This document shows, in pieces, positions 6,041 to 26,055 of a stretch of 35,198 nucleotides of DNA; position 1 is the stretch's first letter, and the number at the start of each line of letters is the position of its first letter. Under the pieces are notes generated by a model that was not told the origin of the DNA, did no database searches, and saw only the letters and a list, made by a program, of their open reading frames with translations. The position numbers and the translations under genes were made by a program. The stretch comes from a candidate division WOR-3 bacterium (GTDB lineage Bacteria > Hydrothermota > Hydrothermia > Hydrothermales > JAJRUZ01): positions 1 through 35,198 of the forward strand of contig JBDRZP010000021.1 in the NCBI GenBank assembly GCA_039804025.1, given 5' to 3'.

Positions 6041-6290
6041 GCATTATGCTTTTGTTTTAATAAAAGTTCAACCTGGAAAAGTTCCTTCTGTTGCTCAAAA
6101 GCTTTATAATATAAATGAAGTAAGGGAGATTTTTATGGTTACAGGTCCTTTTGATATTCTTGCAATTGTTGAGACTGATAACTATGAAAGACTCGGTGAT
6201 ATACTTGCAGAAGAAATTCAAAAAATTCAGGGAATAGAAGAAACGCAGACTCTTATGGCTTTCAGAACATATAAATATCTAGAAAGATGA
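6030..6290 (+). CDS. Stand-alone Lrp/AsnC ligand-binding (RAM) domain protein
   Basis: This 86-residue protein corresponds to the C-terminal RAM/ACT-like domain of Lrp/AsnC regulators. It contains AFVLIKVQPGKVPSVAQKL, VREIFMVTGPFDILAIVETD and a C-terminal TLMAFRTYKY strand, matching the beta-alpha-beta-beta-alpha-beta pattern with the conserved VTGxxDIL motif. It has no helix-turn-helix, so it should not bind DNA alone. It may act as a small effector-sensing oligomer or partner a full-length regulator; that is inference. A strong SD (GGGAGGAG, 6015-6022) lies 7 nt before the ATG, inside the end of mtnA. Its stop overlaps the start of the next gene (ATGA). Confidence 0.85.
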   Translation: MPNKHYAFVLIKVQPGKVPSVAQKLYNINEVREIFMVTGPFDILAIVETDNYERLGDILAEEIQKIQGIEETQTLMAFRTYKYLER

Positions 6291-8020
6291 AAAAAATATT
6301 TTTTTTTATTTTTTTTCTGAGTTTTTTTCTTAATGCTACAATAACAAATTTTGTAATTACTCCTTCTAATTTTACAGTTGGTGATATTGTGACTATTTCA
6401 GTAACAGCTGATCAGGACGGTCCTATTTCATTTTTTATTGCAAATAGTAACAATTTAATTTCGCCAAATACCGGAAATATAATAGGAGGAGTCTATCAAG
6501 GTCAACATAGAATTTTTAAAGCAGGTAGAGATTCAATCTATGTAGCAGGTATACCGGGTAATGCTTATAGTAATTCTTTTCTGGCTAATCCAAAACCCCC
6601 AAGCAGAATTTTATTATTATTCAATACCCAAAGTCATCTCCCGGGAGACAGTTTAAATAAGGGGAGAGGTTCAATTAATTTACCAATTTTTCCAGTTGGT
6701 CAGAATGTAAATTTCACTATAAAACTTACAGATATATATTACAATGAAAGTTCGTATTCAGATACTTTAAAGGTAAACCTTTATACAGATGACCCTCATG
6801 CAACTATTTCAAATACAATTTCTTTTTTACCGGGTGAAACTTCAAAAACTTTTTCCGCAGTTTTCAGGAGAGCAACAATGCCTTACCAGTTTACCCCCTC
6901 TGATAGAAGAATATTAAGGGGGGTTCCAAGCAATCCCAATTTTAGAGGAGATACAGTTAGATTTAACACAAATTCTCCTTATTTTCATGTTCAGGCTGGT
7001 AATTATTCAAAGCTTCTGATACTGGAAAATTGGGATTCATCAGGTATAAGGATAGGTGAACAATTTGATCCAGGAAATTTTAATTCAGGGAAAATCCAGA
7101 AGCTTAAACCCCACCCTTCTGGCTCAAATTTCTGGCTTGAAGCACTTGCCTGTGATTATTATTACAACAGGGTTGTTGGCAGTAATCTTCAGGTTACCTT
7201 AGAGTTTGAAACACCACTTCCACAGGGTAGCTCAGTTACTCCCAATATTGTTAATTTAAATGATGGGAGAGATACCTTTACTATAAATATTTCTACTTCT
7301 GGCATTTATTCTTGCTATTTGAATGATAGTGGAAATAGCATACAAAGTGGGGAAGAATTACTTGATATAAGAGGAAGCTTTTATAATATAACGGTTGATC
7401 CTGATACAATTCTTTCCTGTACTCAACTTTTTAGATTTATTGTTAGATATTATGATGCTTCAGGTAATCAAACAAACTCAAATCAAAAGATATTTTTAAC
7501 TCCTGTTTTTTCCTCAAATTTGAACCAGCGGGCCTCAGGTTTTCTTTCTGATTCACAAATTCAGTTAAATCAGGGTATTGCTGATATTTATCTTAGATAT
7601 TGCACCCAGGCTTCAAATGAGGTAATAAAGATAAAAGTGACAGATGAAATTGGGACAGCACCCTTTTATTCGGAACCCATATATGTAAATAGTTTTGTAT
7701 CAATGAGTGATACTTTTATAGTTTATCCTAACCCTTTTGGTAATGTTGAGTATGGTGGGGTAAAATATGAACAGCTTAAAATAGAGTTTTACCTTCCGGA
7801 ACCATCAGATGTTGAAGTTTTTATTTATGATTTATTTGGTCACCCGGTGAGAAAATTTAAACTTTTGACTCTTACATCTGGCAAACATGTTATAACCTGG
7901 GATGGAAAAAATGAGTCAGGTAAAAGGGTTGCAAGTGGTGCTTATGTTTTAATTCTTAATGCAGTAAAAGGTGCAAGGACTGTTTATAAAAAAAGAAAAA
8001 CAATTTCTGTGATATGGTGA
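6287..8020 (+). CDS. Secreted beta-sandwich protein with C-terminal FlgD/T9SS-like module
   Basis: The 577-residue protein starts with a clear signal peptide (MKKIFFFIFFLSFFLNA). It then has Thr/Ser/Asn-rich beta repeats of Ig- or Big-like character with no motif I recognise. The last 95 residues or so form a FlgD-like/T9SS type A-like module: a FIVYPNPF start, then VEVFIYDLFGHPVRKF, then HVITWDGKNESGKRVASGAY. In Bacteroidota and related phyla such modules terminate exported surface proteins. A sorting role here is inferred, since no secretion system genes are in the window. It overlaps the next gene by 7 bp and is the first gene of the envelope cluster. The biological role is unknown. Confidence 0.65.
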   Translation: MKKIFFFIFFLSFFLNATITNFVITPSNFTVGDIVTISVTADQDGPISFFIANSNNLISPNTGNIIGGVYQGQHRIFKAGRDSIYVAGIPGNAYSNSFLANPKPPSRILLLFNTQSHLPGDSLNKGRGSINLPIFPVGQNVNFTIKLTDIYYNESSYSDTLKVNLYTDDPHATISNTISFLPGETSKTFSAVFRRATMPYQFTPSDRRILRGVPSNPNFRGDTVRFNTNSPYFHVQAGNYSKLLILENWDSSGIRIGEQFDPGNFNSGKIQKLKPHPSGSNFWLEALACDYYYNRVVGSNLQVTLEFETPLPQGSSVTPNIVNLNDGRDTFTINISTSGIYSCYLNDSGNSIQSGEELLDIRGSFYNITVDPDTILSCTQLFRFIVRYYDASGNQTNSNQKIFLTPVFSSNLNQRASGFLSDSQIQLNQGIADIYLRYCTQASNEVIKIKVTDEIGTAPFYSEPIYVNSFVSMSDTFIVYPNPFGNVEYGGVKYEQLKIEFYLPEPSDVEVFIYDLFGHPVRKFKLLTLTSGKHVITWDGKNESGKRVASGAYVLILNAVKGARTVYKKRKTISVIW

Positions 8021-9285
8021 TTATAAATTTTTTAAATTTGATTATCTTCGGAACCTGGGGAGTCCCGGGTTCCTTTATGCTCCATGCTCCAACAGCAAGA
8101 ATTTTTTCACTTGGTTCATCATATACTGCTCTTACCGGTGATCCTGCTTCAATTTATTACAATCCTGCTGGTATTGCTGAATCAAATCCACAAGAAATAC
8201 AGTTTTCAAATAGTCCCTTACCCCTAGGTGGACAGTATGGCTGGTTATCCTATGTTAGACCAACTTTGAAAATTGGAAGTTTTGGTTTTGCTATATTATT
8301 TATCAATTCAGGTAAAATACAAATTGTAGATCCAGATGGAAGATTTGGAGGAAATTTTAACCATTTTGAATCTGCACTTTATTTTTCCTATGCAAGGGAA
8401 TTTTCAAAATATCTTGACATGGGATTGTCGTATAAATTACTTTATAAAACTATTTCAAGGTATGCTTCAATAGGTCATTCCTTTGATTTTGGATTTATAA
8501 TTTTCCCTGAAAATATTTATAAAATAGGTCTATCTCTTGTTAATGCAGTGAATGTTCCTTACAAACTTATTGAGGAATCTGAAGAAATCCCCTTAACTAT
8601 AAGAACCGGGTTATCATCAAATCTATTTGAAGGGAAATTGAATTTACTTTTAGACTTTTTCTCTATTACTGGCTGGAATGAGAACTTTTATTCTTTTGGG
8701 ATAGAATATTACCCGATTGACTTATTTTCTTTAAGAATAGGAATTTCGAAGTATAATTTTACAGCAGGTTCAGGTGTTTTCCTTAAATTACCCGGTAAGA
8801 AAATAGGAATTGATTTTGGTGGTGCTTATCAGTATGAGAGTAATGGTTTATTTCCCTTGACAGGTTTTATAACCTTATGGTTTCAATTTGCTGGCTTTAG
8901 AGTTGAGGTTTCTCCTAATGTCAGGGTGTTTTCGCCGAGGTCAAGAGAGAACAATATTTTAAGGATAGACCTTTTTACGCAAGCAAAGCATGAAATTGAA
9001 AAATGGCAATTTGTTATTAAAGATTCTAAGGGAGAAATAAAGAGAATTTATAAAGACTTTGGAGAACCTGCTAAGGAACTTTTATGGGATGGAAGAGATG
9101 ACCTTGGAATTCTTGTAAGTGACGGATCCTATTATTATGAATTTAGAGTTGTTCAAAAGGACGGAAGCGTTTTAACTGATTCAGGATTTCTTGCGGAGGT
9201 AAAAACCCTGGGTCCAAAAGGTGAAATTTTTTATAGAGAGAAGGGTAAGGTTTCAGAAGAAAAAGAAGAAATTGAACAAAAATGA
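8014..9285 (+). CDS. PorV/FadL-like outer-membrane beta-barrel with C-terminal FlgD-like module
   Basis: The protein has 423 residues. The N-terminal region carries the PorV/UPF0164/FadL-type signature: ARIFSLGSSYTAL, then DPASIYYNPAGIAE at about residues 43-56. Alternating aromatic/hydrophobic strands typical of a 14-strand barrel follow up to about residue 300. A FlgD-like domain comes next (IEKWQFVIKDSKGEIKRIY, then LLWDGRDDLGILVSDGSYYY), and a charged tail ends the protein. The domain probably sits in the periplasm, or at the surface if the protein behaves like T9SS PorV; the sequence cannot settle this. The start overlaps the previous stop, and the short hydrophobic N-terminus (VIINFLNLIIFG) would serve as the signal peptide. 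The gene is part of the envelope cluster. Confidence 0.7.
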   Translation: MVIINFLNLIIFGTWGVPGSFMLHAPTARIFSLGSSYTALTGDPASIYYNPAGIAESNPQEIQFSNSPLPLGGQYGWLSYVRPTLKIGSFGFAILFINSGKIQIVDPDGRFGGNFNHFESALYFSYAREFSKYLDMGLSYKLLYKTISRYASIGHSFDFGFIIFPENIYKIGLSLVNAVNVPYKLIEESEEIPLTIRTGLSSNLFEGKLNLLLDFFSITGWNENFYSFGIEYYPIDLFSLRIGISKYNFTAGSGVFLKLPGKKIGIDFGGAYQYESNGLFPLTGFITLWFQFAGFRVEVSPNVRVFSPRSRENNILRIDLFTQAKHEIEKWQFVIKDSKGEIKRIYKDFGEPAKELLWDGRDDLGILVSDGSYYYEFRVVQKDGSVLTDSGFLAEVKTLGPKGEIFYREKGKVSEEKEEIEQK

Positions 9286-12065
9286 TTAATACAATCTTAA
9301 AACTAATTTTTATAGGTGTTTTATTTTCTCCTCAGGAAATTAAGCTTATTGAAGATGCAGAGACACTTTTTCATGAAGGTTTATACCAGGATGCTATCCA
9401 GATGTATGAAAAGGCTCTGAAAACAAATTTAGGAAAAGAGATGAGAAGAGAAATTTTTTACAGGATTGGTGAATGCTATTTCAATCTTGGAGATTATCAG
9501 AAATCCCTCAGTATATTTGAAAAATTGGAGGAAGAATCCTTTAAAACCTATATTTATCCAGAGGTTTTATATGCACTTGGAATTATTCACCTTGCTTTAG
9601 GCCATTATGACAAAGCAAAATTTTATCTGATTGAAAAGATAAAAGAGTTTCCTTCTTATGTGTCAGATATAAGAGTTAATGAAGGGCAGGGTATTTATTA
9701 TTTTACTCAGGAAATTTATGAAAGTTCTTATGAAAAATTAAAGAATGCAATAAGTGGAGTGGGAATTTTTTATAAGGGAATGACGCTTTCAAGATTGGGA
9801 AAACCAGTAGATGCTCTTAAAGAATTTAAGAAAATTCAGATTTTATATCCTTTTACTCCACTTGCAGAATATGCTGCGTATGTTTCAGGAGAAGCAATGT
9901 TTATAAATAATGATTTCACAGGTGCTTTAAACCTTTATCAAAAATTTATTGAATCTTTCGGTACTTCCCCCCTTGTTGACTATGCAAAATATAAAATAGG
10001 CGTTTGTCTTCTTCATCTGGGAAATAAAGCCCAGGCTCTTACATATTTAAATTCCCTTCTTGGTCACCCTGATGAAATTCTTGTTGCGCACTCCTATTTG
10101 ATGGGTGGAATTGCCTTAAGGGAAATGGGAGACTATGAAAAAGCAATTAAGTATCTTTTAAAAGCAGCTTTTGATTTCCCACAAGTTGGTTCAGCCCCAC
10201 TTGCTCATATGGAACTTGGAAAAACATATTTACTGACCGGTAATAAGGAACAGGCCTTAATAACCTTTAAACAACTTTCAAATACTTATATGACAGGTGA
10301 ATTTTCTGGCATAGGAGATTATCTTACAGCAAGTATTTTATACAGGGATAAAAGGATACTTGAAGCCCGGTTTCAGCTTGAAAATTTGATTAAATATTAT
10401 CCAAAGTCATATATTTTGCCTGCTGCATATGTTCTTTTGTTAAAGTGTATGATTGATTCAAGAGAAACAAAGGAAGCAATAGTTAGAGGAGAAGAATTTT
10501 TAAAAAGTGATATTTATAAACTCGATGGAATAAATAATAGCTACGCTGAGAAATGGATCGCAAGGTTAAAATTGATGCTTGCTGAAGCTTACTATGAAGA
10601 AAAAGACCTTGAGAAGGCTACAAAATACTATGAAGAATTAATTGAGAGTGGAGACCCTGATATTATGGCAGAGGTTTTTAATGGTCTTGGCTGGTGTTAT
10701 CTGGAAAGTGAAAGATATGATGCAGCAATTCAAAAATTTGATGTTGTTATTTCTTCATATCAAAAAGATACACTTGCACTTACTTCTTCCCTTTTTGGTA
10801 AAGGAGTGGCAATTTATAATTCTTGTGCTCTGTTGCAGGAAGAATTACAGAGAGGAGAAAGGTTTAAAAGTGCGGCGTTTACTTTTAAAGAAATTGTGAG
10901 GTTTTATCCTTCATCTTTACTTGCACCAGCTGCTTTGTTTTACGCTGGTGATGCTTTTGCAAAAGCAAATCTTTATGGAAATGCAGTTCAGGAGTGGGAG
11001 GCAGTTCTTTCGGAGTATCCTGGAACAAAGTATGCTGGATATGCTGCCTACTGGCTTGGTGATACTTATTTTAGAGCAGGTGAGCTTGAAAAAGCTGTAT
11101 CTTATTTCAGAATTCTACTTGAACAGTATCCTGAAAATGATCTTGTAAGAGAAGGTTATTTAAGGCTTGCTTCAACCTATTACACAATGAAGGATTATGA
11201 TAATGCAAGAGATATATTAAAAAAGTTTCTTTCAGTTTTCCCGGATGATTCTCTGGTAAAAGATGCTAAATCACTTTTAGAACAGGTTTATTATTTTAAA
11301 TCTGAAAAGGAGCCTGAAAGAATTGAGGATTATGCAAAAGAATTTCCGGAAAGTGAACTTCTCGCTCAGAGACTTTATAATGAAGCAGCTACACTCTACA
11401 ATAATAAAAAATATGAAGAAGCGATTGAAAAAGCAAAGAGGGTTATACTATTGTTTCCATCATCTATTAATGCGGCAGAGGCTCAAAAAATTGTCATTGC
11501 TTCTTATGGTTCATTAAATAATTTTAAAGCAATGGCGGAGGAAGCTGAAAGATTTGTCCAGTATTTTCCTGAACATGAAGAGGTTCCAACAATGTTAAAA
11601 GTTGAAGCCCAGGGTTTGATTCAGGAAGAGAATTATGTAAAGGCAAATGAAGTTCTTGATAAACTGATTAGAAACTATTCTTCTTCTCCTGCTGCAAAGG
11701 AAGGTATTATTTTGAAAGGGGAAGTTTTACTTAACCTTGGTAAGCTAAGAGAAGCTATTAAAACTCTTGAAGAGATTTCTCCGACTGAAGAATATGCATC
11801 AAGATATTATTATCTTTTAGGAGAGGCTTATAATAAACTTGGCCAGATTGATAAAGCCATAAGTTATTATTTATCACTTTTAAAATTTGGAGATATAGAT
11901 GATATTTATAGAATAAAGGGTTTATATACTTTGGCAAGCCTATACCAGATTAAAGGTGATTTGAAAAATGCTGCACAGATTTATGAAGCAATAGCACAGG
12001 TAACAAGTGACCCAGCTATAAAAGAGGATGCTCTATCAAGAGCAAATCTTTTGAAGAAACAATGA
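9282..12065 (+). CDS. Large periplasmic TPR-repeat protein (YbgF/BamD-like repeats)
   Basis: The 927-residue protein has a short hydrophobic N-terminus (ILKLIFIGVLFSP), likely a signal sequence. The rest is built of tetratricopeptide repeats throughout, for example YRIGECYFNLGDYQKSLSIF, AAYWLGDTYFRAGELEKAVS and YYLLGEAYNKLGQIDKAISY. The repeats have the 'F-P-S-S/A-A-Y-LG-y-a' style found in YbgF/CpoB and BamD. It starts in ATGA overlap with the PorV-like gene and lies 34 bp upstream of the ExbB/TolQ gene. In Tol-Pal operons a TPR protein (CpoB) accompanies TolQRAB, so an envelope scaffold linked to the downstream motor is plausible. The size is several times that of CpoB. Exact partners cannot be read from sequence. 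Confidence 0.75.
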   Translation: MINTILKLIFIGVLFSPQEIKLIEDAETLFHEGLYQDAIQMYEKALKTNLGKEMRREIFYRIGECYFNLGDYQKSLSIFEKLEEESFKTYIYPEVLYALGIIHLALGHYDKAKFYLIEKIKEFPSYVSDIRVNEGQGIYYFTQEIYESSYEKLKNAISGVGIFYKGMTLSRLGKPVDALKEFKKIQILYPFTPLAEYAAYVSGEAMFINNDFTGALNLYQKFIESFGTSPLVDYAKYKIGVCLLHLGNKAQALTYLNSLLGHPDEILVAHSYLMGGIALREMGDYEKAIKYLLKAAFDFPQVGSAPLAHMELGKTYLLTGNKEQALITFKQLSNTYMTGEFSGIGDYLTASILYRDKRILEARFQLENLIKYYPKSYILPAAYVLLLKCMIDSRETKEAIVRGEEFLKSDIYKLDGINNSYAEKWIARLKLMLAEAYYEEKDLEKATKYYEELIESGDPDIMAEVFNGLGWCYLESERYDAAIQKFDVVISSYQKDTLALTSSLFGKGVAIYNSCALLQEELQRGERFKSAAFTFKEIVRFYPSSLLAPAALFYAGDAFAKANLYGNAVQEWEAVLSEYPGTKYAGYAAYWLGDTYFRAGELEKAVSYFRILLEQYPENDLVREGYLRLASTYYTMKDYDNARDILKKFLSVFPDDSLVKDAKSLLEQVYYFKSEKEPERIEDYAKEFPESELLAQRLYNEAATLYNNKKYEEAIEKAKRVILLFPSSINAAEAQKIVIASYGSLNNFKAMAEEAERFVQYFPEHEEVPTMLKVEAQGLIQEENYVKANEVLDKLIRNYSSSPAAKEGIILKGEVLLNLGKLREAIKTLEEISPTEEYASRYYYLLGEAYNKLGQIDKAISYYLSLLKFGDIDDIYRIKGLYTLASLYQIKGDLKNAAQIYEAIAQVTSDPAIKEDALSRANLLKKQ

Positions 12066-12099: not shown

Positions 12100-12741
12100 A
12101 TGATACTCGGACAACCTATATTAAAATTAGCTTTAAACCCCTTTATGTTAGTTTTAGAAATTGCCTCACTAATTGCTCTATGGGCAATAATTGATAGATT
12201 ACTTGCATACACCAGGCTTTCAGAAAAAGAGGAACAGAAATTTATTGATAGAACAAAGATGCTTATAGAAAAAGGAAGGTTTGAGGAATTGAAAGCTTTC
12301 AGTTCAGCTATTAATAGACCATTCGCAAAGGTAGTTAATCTTCTTGCAGAGAATATTCAATATCCAAAAGAGGTTCTGGAATCAGTCTTGGAAAGCGCTT
12401 TGATGCTTACAAGACTTGAACTTTCAAAAAAACTAAATATTCTTGGAACAATAAGTTATATTGCTCCACTCCTTGGTCTTCTCGGGACAGTGGTTGGGAT
12501 AATACAGGCATTCTATTCAGTAGCTAAGATGGGGGCAACAGTAGGACCTGAAGCTATGATGGAAGGTGTTGCTATTGCTCTTTTGACAACAGCTCTTGGT
12601 ATTATTATTGCAGTCCCCTGTGCTATAATGTATAATTATTTTAGGAATAAAATTGAACATCTTATGGCAAGAATTGAAGTTTCTGCTGAAGAAATTATGA
12701 ATTTTATGATTTATGTTAAAGAACAAAGGGAAAAAGTTTAA
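12100..12741 (+). CDS. exbB: MotA/TolQ/ExbB proton channel family protein
   Basis: The 213-residue protein has the TolQ/ExbB plan: a first transmembrane helix at about 13-36, a cytoplasmic loop with charged helices (40-110), and two helices at about 113-140 and 155-180. Family motifs are present: APLLGLLGTVVGI at 122-134 and EGVAIALLTTALGIIIAVP at 155-173. They include the pore threonines Thr130 and Thr163/164. ExbB/TolQ pentamers with an ExbD/TolR dimer use the proton motive force to energise TonB or TolA. The downstream genes are two ExbD-like proteins and a TonB-like protein, so the assembly is complete here. TolQ and ExbB cannot be told apart by sequence alone. Confidence 0.9.
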   Translation: MILGQPILKLALNPFMLVLEIASLIALWAIIDRLLAYTRLSEKEEQKFIDRTKMLIEKGRFEELKAFSSAINRPFAKVVNLLAENIQYPKEVLESVLESALMLTRLELSKKLNILGTISYIAPLLGLLGTVVGIIQAFYSVAKMGATVGPEAMMEGVAIALLTTALGIIIAVPCAIMYNYFRNKIEHLMARIEVSAEEIMNFMIYVKEQREKV

Positions 12742-13160
12742 TGAAAAGAAAAAAGGGGTTTTTAAAAGAAAGTGATTTTGAAATAGATTTAACACCTGCA
12801 ATAAATATCGCTTTAATTTTAGTTCTAATTTTTATAACAGGCGCGGTTACAATATTTCAGACTTGGCTTACTGTTTCTTCACCTAAAGTGAGAAAAGCTC
12901 CAAATGTTCAAGAACAGACTATGGCAGAGTTTAAAGTAAATATTCATCTTTCAGCTGATGGGAACATTCTATTGAATGAAGAGCCTGTGAGTTTCAATAA
13001 ACTTGATTCTTTACTTCCCTATTTACTTATAAGAAGTGCAACTGGACTTGTTCTTGTGAGTGCTGATTCACAGGTAGAACACGGAAAAGTAGTAGAAATT
13101 ATTGATCTTGCAAAACAAAAAGGAGCAAGGGAAGTTGCTTTATTAAAAAGGGTAAGATGA
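12741..13160 (+). CDS. exbD: ExbD/TolR family protein, first copy (membrane Asp replaced by Asn)
   Basis: The 139-residue protein has a short cytoplasmic start, one transmembrane helix (about 21-40) and a periplasmic ExbD/TolR fold ending in a VSADSQVEHGKVVEIIDLAK segment (family aDxxvxyxxvvxvmd). The helix motif reads DLTPAINIALILVLI. The residue that is normally the proton-carrying Asp (TPLIDV in ExbD) is Asn22. The neighbouring second copy keeps its Asp. This copy may therefore be a structural subunit that needs the other to form a functional heterodimer; that is inference. It overlaps the ExbB/TolQ stop by 1 bp (TAATG) and lies 1 bp before the second copy. Confidence 0.88.
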   Translation: MKRKKGFLKESDFEIDLTPAINIALILVLIFITGAVTIFQTWLTVSSPKVRKAPNVQEQTMAEFKVNIHLSADGNILLNEEPVSFNKLDSLLPYLLIRSATGLVLVSADSQVEHGKVVEIIDLAKQKGAREVALLKRVR

Positions 13161-13161
13161 A

Positions 13162-13590
13162 ATGAATAATAATGAGTTTGCCAAAATTAATGTTACACCT
13201 TTGTGCGATATTTCCTTTACACTTTTACTTACCCTTATGATTGCAACTACATACCTTTCTGTAAAACAAGCTCCTTTCAGAGTGATATTACCTGATGTTG
13301 AAACTGTTGAGCCAAGAGGTGCAGATGTTGTTACACTTGATATAGATGAAAAAGGTGAAAAAATTGCTATTAACGGTAAAATAGTGTCATGGGATAATTA
13401 TATAGGTATTTTAAAAGGAGAGGCGGAAAAAGATCCATATAAGCTTTTACTTATTAGAGCAGATAAAGGAACTCCTCATGGGATTGTTATGAGAGTTTTA
13501 TCTGAGATTAAAAAATTGAATAGTGAACTCAGTATGGAGAATAAAGAAGGATTTAATAAGATTGCATTTGGAACAAGGAAGAAAAAATGA
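13162..13590 (+). CDS. exbD: ExbD/TolR family protein, second copy (membrane Asp retained)
   Basis: The 142-residue protein has the motif AKINVTPLCDISFTLLLTLM, with the conserved membrane Asp at position 16. A single transmembrane helix and a periplasmic domain follow. The periplasmic domain contains LLIRADKGTPHGIVMRVLSE, the usual RxDxxxxxxxvxxvl element. It pairs with the ExbB/TolQ channel to convert the proton gradient into motion of TonB or TolA. The first and second copies are clearly diverged (139 and 142 aa), which suggests an old duplication with divided roles. The stop overlaps the TonB-like start by 4 bp (ATGA), consistent with translational coupling. Confidence 0.9.
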   Translation: MNNNEFAKINVTPLCDISFTLLLTLMIATTYLSVKQAPFRVILPDVETVEPRGADVVTLDIDEKGEKIAINGKIVSWDNYIGILKGEAEKDPYKLLLIRADKGTPHGIVMRVLSEIKKLNSELSMENKEGFNKIAFGTRKKK

Positions 13591-14627
13591 AAGTAACAAC
13601 TACAAAAGCATATAAGTATATTTATAAAACCCCAAGATATTCAGACCATGTAGGTCTTATAATCTCAATAATAATACACATAATCATATTTTTACTTCTA
13701 CTTTTAAGACAGGAGATATATACAGAAAGAACTTCCCTTTCTGTTACTTTAATAGAGGAATCAAAAAAGAGAGAAGCAGAGAAAAAGGAAGTTTCAAAGG
13801 AGGAAAAGAAACCCGGCCCCGAAGTTAGGCATAAACCCAATTTATTTGCGGCAATTCAACACACAATAGAAAAACCACCTCCGCTTCCAAATATAAATAT
13901 AAAACAAAGAATTGAAGCACCTAAAATTGAAATTTCAAGAAAATTGCCAATAGAACCCGGTCCAATTGTTCCTTTGAAAAACATAGAGATAAAGTCCGTA
14001 ACAGAGGAAATAGGTCCTCAGGCAAAAATAGATTTAAAATCTCTTAAAACAGAGGAAACAGGAATTGGTTCTGAAATAGTTGTAGGTCAGGGTGTAGCAA
14101 CATCAGAAATATTAAAAAGACCTGCCTATAAGCCAACGGTTGATATATCAAAACAGGTTGCTGAAGCTGGACTTGGCACAGGTGGAGCTGCCCCATGGGG
14201 TCCTGGTGGAGGAAGTGGTGGAGCTTATGGAAGTGGAAGGATAGAGCTGAAAGTTAAAGCAGAGGAACCTCCGCCACCTCAACCAGTGACCTCTCCTTCT
14301 GTTTCTTTAAGACCTGAAACAAAGAAAAAAGAAAAAAAAATAGAAGTTGAAATTTCAGGCTCAATAGCTGGTAGGAAAATTTTGAATAAAATTATACCCC
14401 AGTATCCCTCCTGGGCAGCTGAAAGAGGTGTTCAGGCAGTTATTACCTTAAAGGTTGAAGTAGAACCTGATGGAACTGTTAGAAGGAATGTTCTTGTTAT
14501 AGGCACAAGTGGTTACCCAAACTGGGATAATATTGTTAAAGAGGCGGTTCTTTCTTGGAAATTTGAAGCATTACAAGAAAAAGTTATTCAATCAGGTTAT
14601 ATAACTTTTAAGTTTGTTCTTGAATAA
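13587..14627 (+). CDS. tonB: TonB/TolA-like energy transducer
   Basis: The protein has 346 residues. A cytoplasmic N-terminus is followed by one transmembrane helix (about 22-40, containing IISIIIHIIIFLLLLL, with the His typical of TonB helices). A long periplasmic linker rich in Lys, Glu and Pro includes a Gly-rich stretch near residues 195-212 and a PPPPQP segment. The C-terminal TonB domain covers about 255-346: IIPQYPSWAAERGVQAVITL, then VEPDGTVRRNVLVIGTSGYP and AVLSWKFEAL. That matches the TonB consensus 'P.YP..A...G..G.v.l...v..dG.v'. It is coupled to the upstream motor genes. Its outer-membrane partner is not identifiable; no TonB-dependent receptor is in the window. Confidence 0.88.
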   Translation: MKVTTTKAYKYIYKTPRYSDHVGLIISIIIHIIIFLLLLLRQEIYTERTSLSVTLIEESKKREAEKKEVSKEEKKPGPEVRHKPNLFAAIQHTIEKPPPLPNINIKQRIEAPKIEISRKLPIEPGPIVPLKNIEIKSVTEEIGPQAKIDLKSLKTEETGIGSEIVVGQGVATSEILKRPAYKPTVDISKQVAEAGLGTGGAAPWGPGGGSGGAYGSGRIELKVKAEEPPPPQPVTSPSVSLRPETKKKEKKIEVEISGSIAGRKILNKIIPQYPSWAAERGVQAVITLKVEVEPDGTVRRNVLVIGTSGYPNWDNIVKEAVLSWKFEALQEKVIQSGYITFKFVLE

Positions 14628-14633
14628 AAGAAT

Positions 14634-15491
14634 ATGAAAAGAATTTTTAAACTTTTATTTTTAATAGCTTCTTTAAATATTTATGGTCAGGGAACTCAAA
14701 CACCCCAGGAGGAAGTGGAAATAAAAGGTAAGTTCAAAGGTAAAATCAAGGAGAGAAAACCCATATGGAACCTGACCTTTGACCTTTTTGATGCAGCATA
14801 CGAACCTTTCGAAAATAAAGGTTATATCTTTGATAATAGATTTGGAAAAGGGATAATAAAACCTCCTCTTCCTTCTCTTGCTTCAGAAGAGTTAAGAAAA
14901 CCATGGCTTCAAAGTATAGTTCAGGGAGAAGTTGGAATATTTTATCCCTTTTACGGAAGAGATGTTAAAACCTGGAAACTTACCATACTTGATGCAAAGG
15001 GTAACATCTTTAGAGTATATTCAGGAGAGGATGAACCTCCTTCAAAAATTAAATGGGATGGTAGAAATGAAAAAGGGGAAATTTTAGATGTGAGTCTTTT
15101 ATATTTCTATACTGCTGAGGTTCAGGATGAGGCAGGAAATATTGTAAAAACACCTGAAAAATCCATTAAACTTTCAGGAATTCTCTGGCAGGATGGTGTG
15201 AACTGGATAATATCAATTGACGGAAATGAAGTTTTTGAAAAAAACTCAAGTAAAATAAAAAATTATAGTCTTTTGGAAGAAGCGAGAAGTATCATTAAAG
15301 AAAAGGCTAAGGTGAAGGTAGAAGTTATAGTTTATGGTCAGAATCCTGAACTAACAAGAAAAAGATTCGAAACACTGATAAATGATTTGAGAGAAAATTT
15401 AAGAATACCAAAAGGAAAAGTCATTTACATGGAAGGATACTTTAAAAGAACAGGTTATGAGACCTCGAGAATTGATTTTATTATACTTTGA
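14634..15491 (+). CDS. Exported protein with FlgD-like module and divergent OmpA-like C-terminus
   Basis: The 285-residue protein begins with a signal peptide (about 1-19, ending NIYGQ). Residues about 100-180 form a FlgD-like module (VKTWKLTILDAKGNIFRVYS, then IKWDGRNEKGEILDVSLLYF, then VQDEAGN) that resembles the C-terminus of the PorV-like barrel in this cluster. The last 95 residues or so (SIDGNEVFEKNSSKIKNYSL to GYFKRTGYETSRIDFIIL) resemble an OmpA/Pal peptidoglycan-binding domain: a 'vlFe..ssklk' start, a 'R...l...L...gi....i...Gy' end, and a weakened core. If so, it would be the Pal-like end of the motor system. The match is weak because the usual TD and LSxxRA motifs are altered. Confidence 0.55.
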   Translation: MKRIFKLLFLIASLNIYGQGTQTPQEEVEIKGKFKGKIKERKPIWNLTFDLFDAAYEPFENKGYIFDNRFGKGIIKPPLPSLASEELRKPWLQSIVQGEVGIFYPFYGRDVKTWKLTILDAKGNIFRVYSGEDEPPSKIKWDGRNEKGEILDVSLLYFYTAEVQDEAGNIVKTPEKSIKLSGILWQDGVNWIISIDGNEVFEKNSSKIKNYSLLEEARSIIKEKAKVKVEVIVYGQNPELTRKRFETLINDLRENLRIPKGKVIYMEGYFKRTGYETSRIDFIIL

Positions 15492-21354: not shown

Positions 21355-24300
21355 TTAAATTTTTAGAATTTTGTAAGATTTGAGTTTCTGTATTAGATTT
21401 TGTCTTGATATTTTTAAAATTTTTGCTGCTTTTGATTTATTCCAGTTTGTTGATTTTAAAACTTCAATAATATAGTTCCTTTCCATTTCTTCAAGGGATA
21501 AAAATTTTTTCTCGGTTTTATATTTTCTAATCTCTTCTTTTAAATTTGAGGGGGTTATTATATTTTCTTCTTTCAAATTTAAAACAGCGCTTTCAAGAGT
21601 ATATTTTAACTCCCTTACATTACCAGGCCATTCGTAGTTATAAATACAATCCCATGCTTCCTTACTTAATTTTATTTTCCTTTTTATTTTTAATCTGTCT
21701 TTTATTTCTTCAAGAAAGTGGTTAACAAGATAAGGTAGATCATCTTTTCTTTCTCTTAAAGGTGAAATATAAAGGGAGTATCCTTTAAGTCTATAATAGA
21801 GGTCTTTTCTTATCTCTCCCCTTTCGACCTTTTCTTCAATTTCAGGAAGACTTGTTGCTATAACCATTACATCAATATCCTTTTCAACAGGGGAACCAAG
21901 GGGTCTTATCTTACCAGTATCAAGAAATCTGAGTAATTTATCCTGAAGGGAAAGGGGTATTGATTCAATATTTTCAAGAACAATTGTTCCACCATTTGCC
22001 TTTTCAATAAGTCCAATTTTATCTTCAAAGGCACCTGTAAAAGCTCCCCTTTTGTATCCAAAAAGTTCGCTTTCTGCTAGTGTTTCAGGAACTTCATTAA
22101 AGGAAAAGAAGATAATTGGCCTATTCTTTCTTATACTTATTTTGTGTATTGTTTCAGCAATTAAGGTTTTGCCTGTTCCTGTTTCTCCAATAAGAAGAAT
22201 GGGAATGGGTTTTTCAAGGTCTTTTATTTTCTCTATAAAATCATTTATCCTTTCTAAAAACTTTCTTGAACCAACTATTTCTCCAAGTTTTTCAATTTTT
22301 CTTATTTTTTCCTCAAGGGTAATTTTTTCTTCCTCAATTTTTTCAATAAACTTATTTCTAATATAGGATATTGAGAAAATTTCAGTTAAAATATTTAAAA
22401 TTTCAAAATCATCGGATGTAAATTCCCTTTTTGTTTTTGAATCAAGGTAAATGGCTCCAAGTAGTTTATCTTCATAGAAAAATGGAATACAGAATATTGA
22501 CCTTATCCTGTATTTTTGAACACTTTCTTTTGTTTTAAAACTATCGTCCATTAAAGTATCAGGAACATAAAAATGAATTCCCTTTTTAGTCGTATTAAGA
22601 ACAGAACTCAGTGATATATCAATTATATCCCTTCCTATGTCCTTTTTATAAAGTCCATAAGAAACTTTAATTTCAAGATGTTTATCCTCACCTTCACTTT
22701 TCATAAATATCATTCCCCTTTCCATTTCAGTTGCCTTAACAATGATTTCTATTGTTTTTTTCAAAAATTCTTCTTCCTTGTTATAGTTTAAGGAGTATAA
22801 AAGATAATTTCTAAAAATTTTCCACTTTTTGTCCTCAATTATTTTCCCAAAAGAAACATAAGAAAGTAATTCTTCTCTTATAAGTGAAAGTTCCTTTCTC
22901 AAAAATTCTTCTTCCTGTGTTTCATAAAGTTTTGTGATAAAGTTTTGAAGTTTGGGAATAAAACCCAGTTTTGTTATTTCACTTTTCTCAAAAACAATAA
23001 AAAAGAGTTTAAAAAATATTATAAAATCCTTTATAAATCTCTCATTATTTAAAAAATTTTTAGATTTTTTTAAAAATGTTTCAAGGTATTCAAAGGCTTC
23101 AATTTTTTTATTCTCCTTTATACTTTCTAAAAAATAAAATAAATTTTTAAAACAATCTGTATAATCTGAGGAAAATGTAATATTCTCATATTCTTTTTTA
23201 ATTTCTTTCAATTTTTCTTTATTTTTTATATTTAAAAGATATTCAAATAAAATTAAAACTTTTATTCTCTCAAAGTTTTCAGTTTTTCTCTCATATTCCA
23301 TAAGTTCTTTTTCTATTCTTTTAAATTCTTCTAAATTCCTATTAAGAGCCAGAAATAAAAGATATTCTTCCATAAATTTTTTTCTGTATAAAAAATTTGA
23401 AACTCTATTTAGGTTTTCCATCATCTTTTTTAAAAAAATATCAAATTTTTTATTTTCTGAAATTCTTAAATATTTTAAATATTCAACAAGTGTATCTATT
23501 AATTTTGTATAAATCCTATATTTTTCAGATAATTCAATAGCTCTCTCATAATACTGGGAAGGGTCTTCTTTTATAAGTCTCCTGTAATCAGCTTCCACAC
23601 TTAAAATATAAGGTTCAAAAATCGGAAGGTTTAAACTTTTATTAATTATATCTAACTTTTTTTTAATATTTGTGAGAAAGTTTAAATTTTTTTTATCTTT
23701 GTAATATCTAAATTTAATGAATTCAAAATAAAGTAAAATATAGGGGAAAATTCTCGCAGCCTTATAAAAGCTTTCAAATCTCTCCTGAATATACTGAATT
23801 GCTTTTTCTTTTTTACCTGTTAAATAAAGAAACTCAATGTAATAAAGTAAATAAAGGTAACTTCTGTAAGTCGGCCCCATTTTTTTTGAATAATAAAAGG
23901 CTCTTTTATAGGAAAGTTCTGCTTTTGTTGAATCCCCTTTCATTTCATAATAAGCTCCCTCAATTCTGTAATACATTGATATATTTGGAAAATCACGGGG
24001 ATCGTAAAAATTTCTTTTATATTTTTTTAAAACTTCTTCAAGTTCTTTAATTTTAAAAGTATTTATAAGTGCAAGACCTTTTAAAAGAAGGGATTCCTTG
24101 TCATCTTCATCTTTTAAAATTTCGTAACTCTTTTCAAAATCTCCTTTAATGTAACAGTAATAAGAATAAACTAATTTATAATCCTTTTCTGATATATCTT
24201 TTAAAAGATTTAAAACTTCCTCAAATTTTTTATCTCCTTCACCTATAAGAAAATAGGAGTAATATTTTAAGATTCTTGGAGGTATTCTTTTAAGTTCAAT

Positions 24301-26055
24301 ATCTTCTGACAGTCTTTTGAAAAATTCAAAAAGAATTTTTGGGTTTACTCTATAGAGATTCTCTAATTCTTCCTCTATCAGGTATAATTCAGAATAATCT
24401 TTATTTTTTAATTTTGCTAAAGTATAAATTAATTTTCCTTCAATGGAAAGTTCTTTAATATCTTTAAGATTTTTTAAAATTTTTTCATATGGGATATCCT
24501 TTTTAAGGTCAATAAGAGGAACTGAAAATTCTCCACTTCTCTCTATAAATCCCCTTTTTGTAATTTTTTCTATTGTTTCATATCCAAAAATTTTTTCAGT
24601 TTCCTCTATCTTTAGTTTTCCAAAAATATTAAGAGTGGATAAAAGATCTTCTTCCTCAGGACTTAAAAGTTTTTCTCCTTTAATTTTCCTTTCAATATCT
24701 TCTATATTCTTTGAAGATTTTAAAATTGAAAAGATATTTTTTAAATTACCTTTTTCTATTCTTATGATGTTTCTCAATAGTTCTGGTTTTTCAAAAGTTA
24801 AGGGGTTATTTTCAAGATAAATATATATTCTCTCCTCAGAAGGTTTTTTTAAAATTATCTCTTTTCCTTTTAAAATATGACTCCCTTCTTCTATCAATAT
24901 AATTAAGTTTTTAAATTCCTTTACTTCTTTTAAACTTTCAAGGAAATTTAGAAATTCCTTTTTATGGAATAATGGGTCTGTTATTACGAGAAGATACTTT
25001 TCTTTTTCTCTAATATTAAGAAGATGATATGTTATAAATGTATAAAGGTTTTCTTCTGGAAAAGAAAGATAGGGAATTTTTCCACCATCAATAAGTAAGG
25101 AATTTATTTCCTCTTTAATTTCTGAATAAATTTTTTTTAGGAAAAAGGTTTTTCCACTTCCTTTTTCCCCTTTTAAAAGAATAATTTCCCTTTCTTTATC
25201 CTTTATTTCCTTTAAAATTTCCTTTTTTATTTTTTCTCTGTCTTTTTCAATAAATTCAAGGTCAAATGTATAAAAAACTTTTTCATTGAATATATTTTCC
25301 ATAATCCAACTTGCAGACTTTCTTTTTTCAGGATCCCTATTTAGGGTTATATTTAAAAATTCCTTCCAGAACTCTTCTTTTACCTTATCTTTCCACCCTT
25401 CATCAAGAAACAAGCTTTTATATTCCCTGTAATTATCAATTTTTATTCCAGTAAGAATTTCAAAAGTTATTACACCAAGGGAAAAGACATCGGACTTATG
25501 GGTATTATTTTTACCTTCTAATACTTCAGGAGCAGAATAGAGTGGTGTCCCCCTTGAAAAGGATTTTTTTTTATGAGTGGCAAGCCCAAAATCAGAGAGA
25601 ACAGGATATTCAGATTCCTCTGATGGGAAAAGAATATTCTCGGGTTTTAAATCTGAATGAACAATAATATTTTTCTCAAGATAAGAAAGGGTATCAAGAA
25701 TATTTCTAACTAATTTTTTTAAATCCTTTATATTATTTTTCTCTATCCTTTCTCTTAAACTCCCTCCCTTTAAATATTCAAGAATAAGAACAGATTTATA
25801 ATCTGGATAAAATAAAAAATCATAAGTTTTAATAATACCGGAATGATTAAGGTTAAAAAGTAGATAAAATTCTTTATAAAGTTCTTTATGATTTGTATAG
25901 GGCACCTCTTTTATGACTAAATTTTTTCCTCCTGGTTCTTCACCAAGATAAACCTTTGTTTTTTCTGTTTCATATAAAACTTTAATCCTTTTTATTATTC
26001 CATCTATTTCATAACTCCATACTTTACTTTTTAAATTTTTAGAAAGTTTATTCAT
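21355..26055 (-). CDS. Giant Ser/Thr kinase - AAA ATPase - TPR - GAF - sigma-54 enhancer-binding regulator
   Basis: This 1566-residue cytoplasmic regulator has, in order, five parts. A eukaryotic-type kinase (about 18-255) has Lys49, HSDLKPEN at 133-140 (HRD changed to HSD), DFG at 155-157 and APE at 175-177. An STAND/AAA-like ATPase has Walker A GEKGSGKT (296-303) and VITD near 360. A long alpha-helical TPR-like region covers about 540-1080. A GAF domain covers about 1095-1235. A sigma-54 activator AAA+ domain (about 1260-1483) has GETGTGKT at 1290-1297, GAFTGA at 1337-1342, Arg1416 and WPGNVREL at 1476-1483, and a Fis-type HTH ends the protein. The AAA+ Walker B reads IVLENI instead of LFLDEI (E1361/N1362). 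The gene lies 21 bp after the fumarase subunit, has no SD, and is followed by the micropeptide ORF. It probably activates an RpoN promoter in response to ligand or phosphorylation signals; the target is not proven. Confidence 0.9.
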   Translation of the reverse strand: MNKLSKNLKSKVWSYEIDGIIKRIKVLYETEKTKVYLGEEPGGKNLVIKEVPYTNHKELYKEFYLLFNLNHSGIIKTYDFLFYPDYKSVLILEYLKGGSLRERIEKNNIKDLKKLVRNILDTLSYLEKNIIVHSDLKPENILFPSEESEYPVLSDFGLATHKKKSFSRGTPLYSAPEVLEGKNNTHKSDVFSLGVITFEILTGIKIDNYREYKSLFLDEGWKDKVKEEFWKEFLNITLNRDPEKRKSASWIMENIFNEKVFYTFDLEFIEKDREKIKKEILKEIKDKEREIILLKGEKGSGKTFFLKKIYSEIKEEINSLLIDGGKIPYLSFPEENLYTFITYHLLNIREKEKYLLVITDPLFHKKEFLNFLESLKEVKEFKNLIILIEEGSHILKGKEIILKKPSEERIYIYLENNPLTFEKPELLRNIIRIEKGNLKNIFSILKSSKNIEDIERKIKGEKLLSPEEEDLLSTLNIFGKLKIEETEKIFGYETIEKITKRGFIERSGEFSVPLIDLKKDIPYEKILKNLKDIKELSIEGKLIYTLAKLKNKDYSELYLIEEELENLYRVNPKILFEFFKRLSEDIELKRIPPRILKYYSYFLIGEGDKKFEEVLNLLKDISEKDYKLVYSYYCYIKGDFEKSYEILKDEDDKESLLLKGLALINTFKIKELEEVLKKYKRNFYDPRDFPNISMYYRIEGAYYEMKGDSTKAELSYKRAFYYSKKMGPTYRSYLYLLYYIEFLYLTGKKEKAIQYIQERFESFYKAARIFPYILLYFEFIKFRYYKDKKNLNFLTNIKKKLDIINKSLNLPIFEPYILSVEADYRRLIKEDPSQYYERAIELSEKYRIYTKLIDTLVEYLKYLRISENKKFDIFLKKMMENLNRVSNFLYRKKFMEEYLLFLALNRNLEEFKRIEKELMEYERKTENFERIKVLILFEYLLNIKNKEKLKEIKKEYENITFSSDYTDCFKNLFYFLESIKENKKIEAFEYLETFLKKSKNFLNNERFIKDFIIFFKLFFIVFEKSEITKLGFIPKLQNFITKLYETQEEEFLRKELSLIREELLSYVSFGKIIEDKKWKIFRNYLLYSLNYNKEEEFLKKTIEIIVKATEMERGMIFMKSEGEDKHLEIKVSYGLYKKDIGRDIIDISLSSVLNTTKKGIHFYVPDTLMDDSFKTKESVQKYRIRSIFCIPFFYEDKLLGAIYLDSKTKREFTSDDFEILNILTEIFSISYIRNKFIEKIEEEKITLEEKIRKIEKLGEIVGSRKFLERINDFIEKIKDLEKPIPILLIGETGTGKTLIAETIHKISIRKNRPIIFFSFNEVPETLAESELFGYKRGAFTGAFEDKIGLIEKANGGTIVLENIESIPLSLQDKLLRFLDTGKIRPLGSPVEKDIDVMVIATSLPEIEEKVERGEIRKDLYYRLKGYSLYISPLRERKDDLPYLVNHFLEEIKDRLKIKRKIKLSKEAWDCIYNYEWPGNVRELKYTLESAVLNLKEENIITPSNLKEEIRKYKTEKKFLSLEEMERNYIIEVLKSTNWNKSKAAKILKISRQNLIQKLKSYKILKI

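Follow-up and report, generated by a model that had tools for sequence, protein, structure and literature searches.

A tandem ExbD/TolR pair with one membrane aspartate, missing from opposite partners in different lineages of the WOR-3 phylum

Introduction

What becomes of a proton-driven motor when one of the two tandem ExbD/TolR genes next to its ExbB gene encodes a protein without the membrane aspartate (Asp) that carries the proton? This question is raised by a window of 35,198 nucleotides (the whole stretch of DNA that was analyzed), which constitutes one of the 47 contigs of a 2.12-Mb genome of WOR-3, which we take to be the same group as Caldifarciminota. According to the cited passages of work on ExbD, TolR and MotB, two helices lie in the pore with their Asp residues in unequal surroundings (PMC12215075, PMC12965293), and in current models the protonation passes between these two residues with every step of 36 degrees (PMC12905483; PMC9389320). 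The models for ExbBD, TolQR and MotAB thus use ten ions per turn, and according to a review a turn on five ions could be explained only by a model that is new altogether (PMC9389320).

Results

Organization of the locus

The genes in question lie on the forward strand. An ExbB/TolQ subunit of 213 aa (12100..12741; PF01618, 103.3 bits), whose alignment contains both conserved pore threonine regions (GTV and TT), is followed by two ExbD/TolR genes that lie at the coordinates given in a first-pass annotation, one base apart and on the same strand. We refer to copy 1 as α (12741..13160, 139 aa; PF02472, 74.7 bits, cut-off 25.4) and to copy 2 as β (13162..13590, 142 aa; PF02472, 69.2 bits, cut-off 25.4); the ExbB, α and β genes nearly overlap. 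Downstream are a gene for a TonB-like protein of 346 aa (13587..14627), which has an N-terminal membrane helix with an SxxxH motif that was spotted by eye and a TonB_C domain (PF03544, 35.3 bits, cut-off 24.6; TIGR01352, 39.6 bits, cut-off 27.1), and a gene for an exported protein of 285 aa (14634..15491) with a FlgD-Ig-like domain (weak PF13860) and a divergent OmpA-like C terminus, whose homologue at locus L227 matches PF00691 at an E value of 8e-6, slightly below the cut-off. Upstream of ExbB lies a gene for a tetratricopeptide repeat (TPR) protein of 927 aa (9282..12065), whose weak similarities to PorW/SprE, YbgF and BamD can all three be accounted for by the TPR repeats. It is preceded by a gene for an outer-membrane barrel of the PorV/PorQ family with a FlgD-like Ig tail (8014..9285, 423 aa; NF033709, 90.5 bits, cut-off 90). 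In ExbB proteins of families f3 and f9 (for instance at L089 and L085) an Asp is present directly past the GTV region (GTVDG), which the ExbB of the window does not have.

The missing aspartate of copy 1

Copy 1 reads DLTPAINIALILV, with Asn22 (codon AAT, 12804..12806, forward strand) in the place of the proton-carrying Asp, and copy 2 reads NVTPLCDISFTLL, with Asp16 (codon GAT, 13207..13209, forward strand) as the sole proton-carrying Asp of the pair; both assignments agree with those made earlier. When a profile of copy-1 homologues was compared with solved structures, Asn22 of α aligned to Asp25 of Escherichia coli ExbD (6tyi) and to the Asp of TolR (9ddm), and the membrane Asp for proton coupling is hence absent from α and present in β. 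A sequencing or base-calling error at Asn22 was considered and rejected: another genome of the genus also carries Asn at this site, in a 98% identical copy, and a third carries Ser. The AlphaFold2 model of α (mean pLDDT 73, pTM 0.47) contains a single helix, residues 18-39, with Asn22 near its start. From there the chain continues through a disordered linker into a periplasmic domain of the ExbD type, which Foldseek matched best to solved ExbD domains of E. coli (8pek, 8p9r). The single-chain model of β resembles it (pLDDT 75, helix 12-34).

Distribution of the aspartate among α/β sets of the phylum

A first search, in which each copy was used as query against 60 relatives and the ExbD proteins were then extracted, yielded 37 genomes (the own genome plus 36) with an α/β-type pair. 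Exactly one Asp was found in 36 of the 37: copy 1 was Asp-less (Asn or Ser) in 10, and in 26 it was copy 2, where the site held Gly, Cys, Ser or Asn; genome G051 had both Asp. For the full census, a copy-1 profile was run against 147 genomes of the phylum and the loci were then retrieved. The α profile had hits in 93 genomes. From these, G066, G140 and G145 were removed because they score as other ExbD, and G146, whose locus was not retrieved, was likewise left out of the count; addition of G041 from the first search resulted in 90 genomes, with 93 α/β loci. The letters at the α and β positions were D/G in 26 loci, D/C in 26, N/D in 15, D/A in 14, D/D in 4, S/D in 3, D/S in 2 and D/N in 2, leaving one α without an adjacent β. 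In this last case (G076), the β gene, which encodes Gly, is located on another contig than ExbB-α, before a gene that looks TonB-like. With G076 resolved in this way, a β was found for every α locus (93/93), across many families. Counting this unlinked β raises the number of sets with exactly one Asp from 88 to 89 of the 93; both Asp are present in four, and none of the 93 is without any. The Asp has been lost from α in 18 sets (Asn or Ser; α-lost) and from β in 71 (Gly, Cys, Ala, Ser or Asn; β-lost). It should be noted that in G041 (L094, 684-1089) α is split into two frames beside an intact β (Cys) and ExbB, reflecting either an assembly error or a real disruption.

These numbers bear on the earlier proposal that the pair forms an Asp/Asn heterodimer, which would have only one site to protonate. 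The presence of one Asp per set in 89/93, and the fact that opposite partners are affected, fit this proposal better than expected; the shared ExbB pentamer is the part that we infer. Asn as the lost state proved too narrow a description, since besides Asn the site may hold Ser, Gly, Cys or Ala, and what is kept in the orthologous pairs (89/93) is one Asp per set and not the Asn of copy 1, the α of 75 of the 93 sets having Asp. The first-pass annotation had regarded copy-1 orthologues with Asp as evidence against its proposal, yet in 71 of these 75 sets it is copy 2 that is Asp-less, so that an Asp in copy 1 is not diagnostic. As copy 2 has usually lost its Asp wherever copy 1 has one, the single-site idea gains support instead.

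The one-Asp pattern is established within the 147 genomes of this phylum, over which the pairs were surveyed, and may or may not be confined to it. A named scan beyond the phylum covered 47 loci, of which six were of the WOR-3 type, at least five of them being the loci of G004, G049, G051, G055 and G139. The remaining 41, which come from Aeromonas, Myxococcota, Desulfobacterota and further groups, have a single ExbD with Asp in the stretches retrieved.

History of the losses

With the Asp column removed, 94 ExbD proteins gave a maximum-likelihood tree in which the first copies all fall into one clade, with or without Asp (support 100/100), and the second copies into two (99/97 and 97/95). The α of G051 groups with the first copies though it is the second gene in order. 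We also considered that a swapped gene order might pose as reciprocal loss, and rejected this: copy 1 of the window matches the first copies of other lineages at E values of ~1e-17 to 1e-31 and second copies far more weakly, in line with the support of 100/100 for the α clade. On the basis of this tree, α and β are two distinct, ancient ExbD paralogue families. Asp was taken as the ancestral state because it is present in each of the 20 further ExbD proteins of the tree.

A second tree was based on the concatenated pairs of 91 of the 93 loci, leaving out G041, with its split α, and G076, whose β was found later. The β-lost loci constitute one side of a branch supported by 100/100. The four D/D loci form a single clade (100/100), even though they come from three families (f12, f21 and f30), which suggests that the D/D version of the locus may have moved between lineages. 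This clade adjoins the α-lost loci of f12, f17 and f24, and the α-lost loci therefore need two changes. The Asp was thus lost at least twice, once in each paralogue, and more often if it was never regained. It follows that the 93 loci are not 93 independent tests, the reciprocity representing few events; because the loss events are few, the case rests less on the number of loci than on the reciprocity together with the further signs described below. The D/D sets are those of L046/L228, L169, L176 and L207.

ExbB-α fusions and divergence of the membrane helices

Eight genomes, which belong to families f12, f17 and f24 (G040, G045, G057, G136, G137, G138, G143 and G144; loci L078, L084, L087, L168, L178, L186, L199 and L201), encode an α with Asn or Ser that is fused to a second ExbB in an open frame of 363-377 aa. 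The order at these loci is a separate ExbB, then ExbB2-α, then a β with Asp, and in G144 the Pfam domains MotA_ExbB and ExbD were found on one chain. The join is topologically sensible because the C terminus of ExbB and the N terminus of ExbD are both cytoplasmic. As the fusion tethers the Asp-less helix to a subunit of the ring, it suggests that this helix sits at the pore. In three of the four D/D loci there are two separate ExbB genes, one ahead of each ExbD.

The membrane helices of α and β share an identity of 0.26 in the 18 α-lost sets and of 0.24 in 69 β-lost sets, versus 0.77 in the four D/D sets. As a control we used another tandem ExbD pair of these bacteria (IPTASMADIAF type). With the position left free, both Asp are present in 22/22 genomes, a sample drawn from loci of high-scoring ExbD matches and not a census; the mean helix identity is 0.79 over 31 pairs, which were picked by a motif requiring Asp and 22 of which come from the same genomes as the former sample. 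Since helix identity is ~25% in one-Asp sets and ~78% in two-Asp pairs, the loss of a single Asp appears to accompany an axle of two different helices. The freed site changed its letter seven times among the 69 β-lost rows and twice among the 18 α-lost ones, and the retained Asp changed in neither group (0 and 0).

Discussion

Alternative readings of the one-Asp sets

The reading that we prefer, and to which we assign a probability of roughly 0.6, is that α and β form an obligate 1:1 heterodimer in the pore of the ExbB pentamer, which would provide the motor with one protonatable Asp instead of two. Its main rival, which we consider unlikely and nevertheless worth serious attention, is that the Asp-bearing chain forms an ordinary two-Asp homodimer in ExbB, the Asp-less chain being an accessory outside the pore, such as a periplasmic anchor, a contact to TonB or peptidoglycan, or an assembly factor. 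The location of the G076 β away from ExbB-α would fit such an arrangement, and homodimers are described as the rule for ExbD, TolR and MotB in the cited parts of two papers (PMC12215075, PMC9389320). However, it leaves unexplained why α is Asp-less in some lineages and β in others, and never both, and why the Asp-less α retains its membrane helix (residues 18-39), is acid-free past the site in 18/18 cases and is fused to ExbB in eight genomes.

We regard as improbable that two homodimeric motors share a pool of ExbB, the Asp-less one being inactive, dominant-negative or non-rotating and serving to tune the number of active motors. Both chains are of the ExbD type in sequence, each with a predicted membrane helix, and mixed stator pools, which are known in flagellar motors, would be a precedent. 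Such a pool would not, however, require reciprocal loss or the joint divergence of both helices, and the nearly overlapping genes, in the order ExbB-α-β, point to equal dosage.

The remaining two explanations have very little left in their favor. That the Asp-less copy is a decaying duplicate, for which the loss of a key residue is the one argument, is already contradicted by its dN/dS ratios according to Nei-Gojobori, which are 0.090 versus G002 (few changes) and 0.078 versus G001 (synonymous sites near saturation), compared with 0.182 and 0.071 for β, by its retention across many families, and by the α of the genus relative, which is 98% identical over 139 aa; these values show purifying selection on the Asp-less α, which is conserved over its entire length. 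That the proton site has shifted to another acid of the same helix or to ExbB is as hard to maintain: 10 of the 69 β-lost helices do have an acid at +12 or +15 and the ExbB of f3 and f9 has one beside GTV, whereas all 18 α-lost and 59 of the 69 β-lost helices are acid-free within 18 residues past the site, the exceptions lie toward the helix end, and next to GTV, the residues to which the ExbB check applies, the window's ExbB is free of acids. For the α-lost clade, with an acid in 0/18, a shift within the ExbD helix is contradicted.

A motor with a single site

If α and β indeed share one pore 1:1, the neutral residue of the Asp-less chain would mimic a permanently protonated site, and the single Asp would cycle between the ExbB subunits. 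The motor might then make five 72-degree steps per turn, using five protons, or rock rather than rotate; the heterodimer, its stoichiometry and the step size are all matters that we infer. With a neutral residue in place of one of its two Asp, the ten-step cycle could not run as drawn. A more far-reaching version, which we put forward tentatively and would not favor over its negation, is a half-sited rotary motor in which an αβ axle with one Asp and a fixed neutral partner turns in 72-degree steps at five protons per revolution (or moves back and forth), and where, in the fusion lineages, a heteromeric ring of four ExbB and one ExbB-α is covalently tied to the axle and cannot rotate freely. 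If true, this would break the two-site turnstile model. Against a single site stand the four D/D loci, since a two-Asp set thus exists in the same family, and the two-site turnstile proposed for 5:2 motors, which has no obvious one-site working cycle (PMC9389320). Expression from one mRNA is not required, since the G076 β is unlinked from ExbB-α.

That lineages differ in which of the two partners is disabled calls into question the idea that a 5:2 motor turns by means of two sites. A phylum in which one site has been removed from either chain, and never from both, constitutes a natural experiment on the five-ion question, and on whether a 5:2 motor works with one site or without full rotation. 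Moreover, α and β would be a genetically marked heterodimer, in which the halves of the axle can be distinguished.

Relation to known systems

The TonB-ExbB-ExbD and TolA-TolQ-TolR systems of E. coli share with the α/β locus the protein families, the pore threonine pair and a TonB-like transducer with an SxxxH helix; they contain a homodimer of one ExbD or TolR, with two Asp, and we know of no barrel/TPR operon of the kind described here in these systems. The ExbB-ExbD1-ExbD2 sets of Xanthomonas and others, which are arranged in tandem, are alike in that two ExbD paralogues are named beside ExbB and TonB. Closer to hand, the IPTASMADIAF-type pair of the same genomes also consists of two adjacent ExbD beside ExbB and TonB, and differs from α/β in that both Asp are retained (22/22) and the membrane helices are near-identical (31 pairs, mean 0.79).

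The nearest known case is AglQ/AglS. The AglR-AglQ-AglS system involved in gliding and sporulation of Myxococcus xanthus resembles the α/β set, as far as the cited sections describe it, in combining a single subunit of the ExbB/TolQ type with two of the ExbD/TolR type, the machine at large including TPR and outer-membrane partners, and the same sections state that it is unknown whether AglQ and AglS form homodimers or heterodimers (PMC9389320; PMC3169522). Both AglQ and AglS are described there with the conserved Asp (PMC9389320), whereas α/β has just one, the comparison being one of descriptions and not of Agl sequences. In the open-access literature we found no description of a one-Asp ExbD/TolR/MotB heterodimer, which, with subscription journals mostly outside the scope of the search, is no proof of novelty. 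GldL-GldM, the 5:2 proton motor of type IX secretion and gliding, is brought to mind by the PorV/Q-like barrel in the α/β operon and by SprA-like proteins in the genome; the section cited reports no conclusive sequence homology between GldLM and other 5:2 motors (PMC9389320).

A possible link to the cell envelope

A link between the α/β motor and type IX-like secretion is perhaps indicated by the PorV/Q-family barrel, by the product of the gene directly upstream of the barrel (6287-8020), 577 aa long and with a C-terminal domain that resembles the T9SS type A sorting domain (TIGR04183, 23.3 bits, cut-off 23), and by the SprA-like proteins. SprA (TIGR04189) has matches in 145 of the 147 genomes of the phylum, in 130 of them above the curated cut-off, G000 being included with a best E value of 2.7e-40. 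A GldM model matched 0/147 genomes, in a search in which no positive control rang. However, α occurs in 90 of the 147 genomes versus 145 for SprA, and G003, among other nearly complete genomes, has SprA without α. The α/β motor is thus not present wherever SprA is, as a role as T9SS motor would need, and we keep this role as a lead only, since SprA occurs in many genomes without α/β. Reviews describe the T9SS as specific to Bacteroidetes; SprA-like proteins are nonetheless found throughout this phylum.

The best reading of the gene neighborhood is that the α/β motor would drive an envelope machine composed of the PorV/Q-like barrel, the TPR protein, TonB and the OmpA-like protein, the TonB-like protein passing force to the envelope parts. 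The comparison covered eight stretches, in which the sizes of the genes and the ends of their sequences were inspected and a few genes were searched with Pfam. In the D/D genome G051, the TPR and barrel genes are absent directly upstream. To the extent that the contigs cover it, the order barrel, TPR, ExbB, α, β, TonB and FlgD/OmpA-like recurs in lineages of all three kinds (α-lost, β-lost and fusion): a long gene lies 5' of ExbB in most relatives inspected, a barrel-like gene lies upstream of the locus in most of those whose contigs extend there, and the FlgD-Ig/OmpA-like gene comes after the TonB gene in relatives too. Elsewhere in the window, the reverse strand (21355-26055) encodes a protein of ~1566 aa that combines a Ser/Thr protein kinase with an ATPase region, a GAF domain, a sigma-54 activator and a Fis-type HTH.
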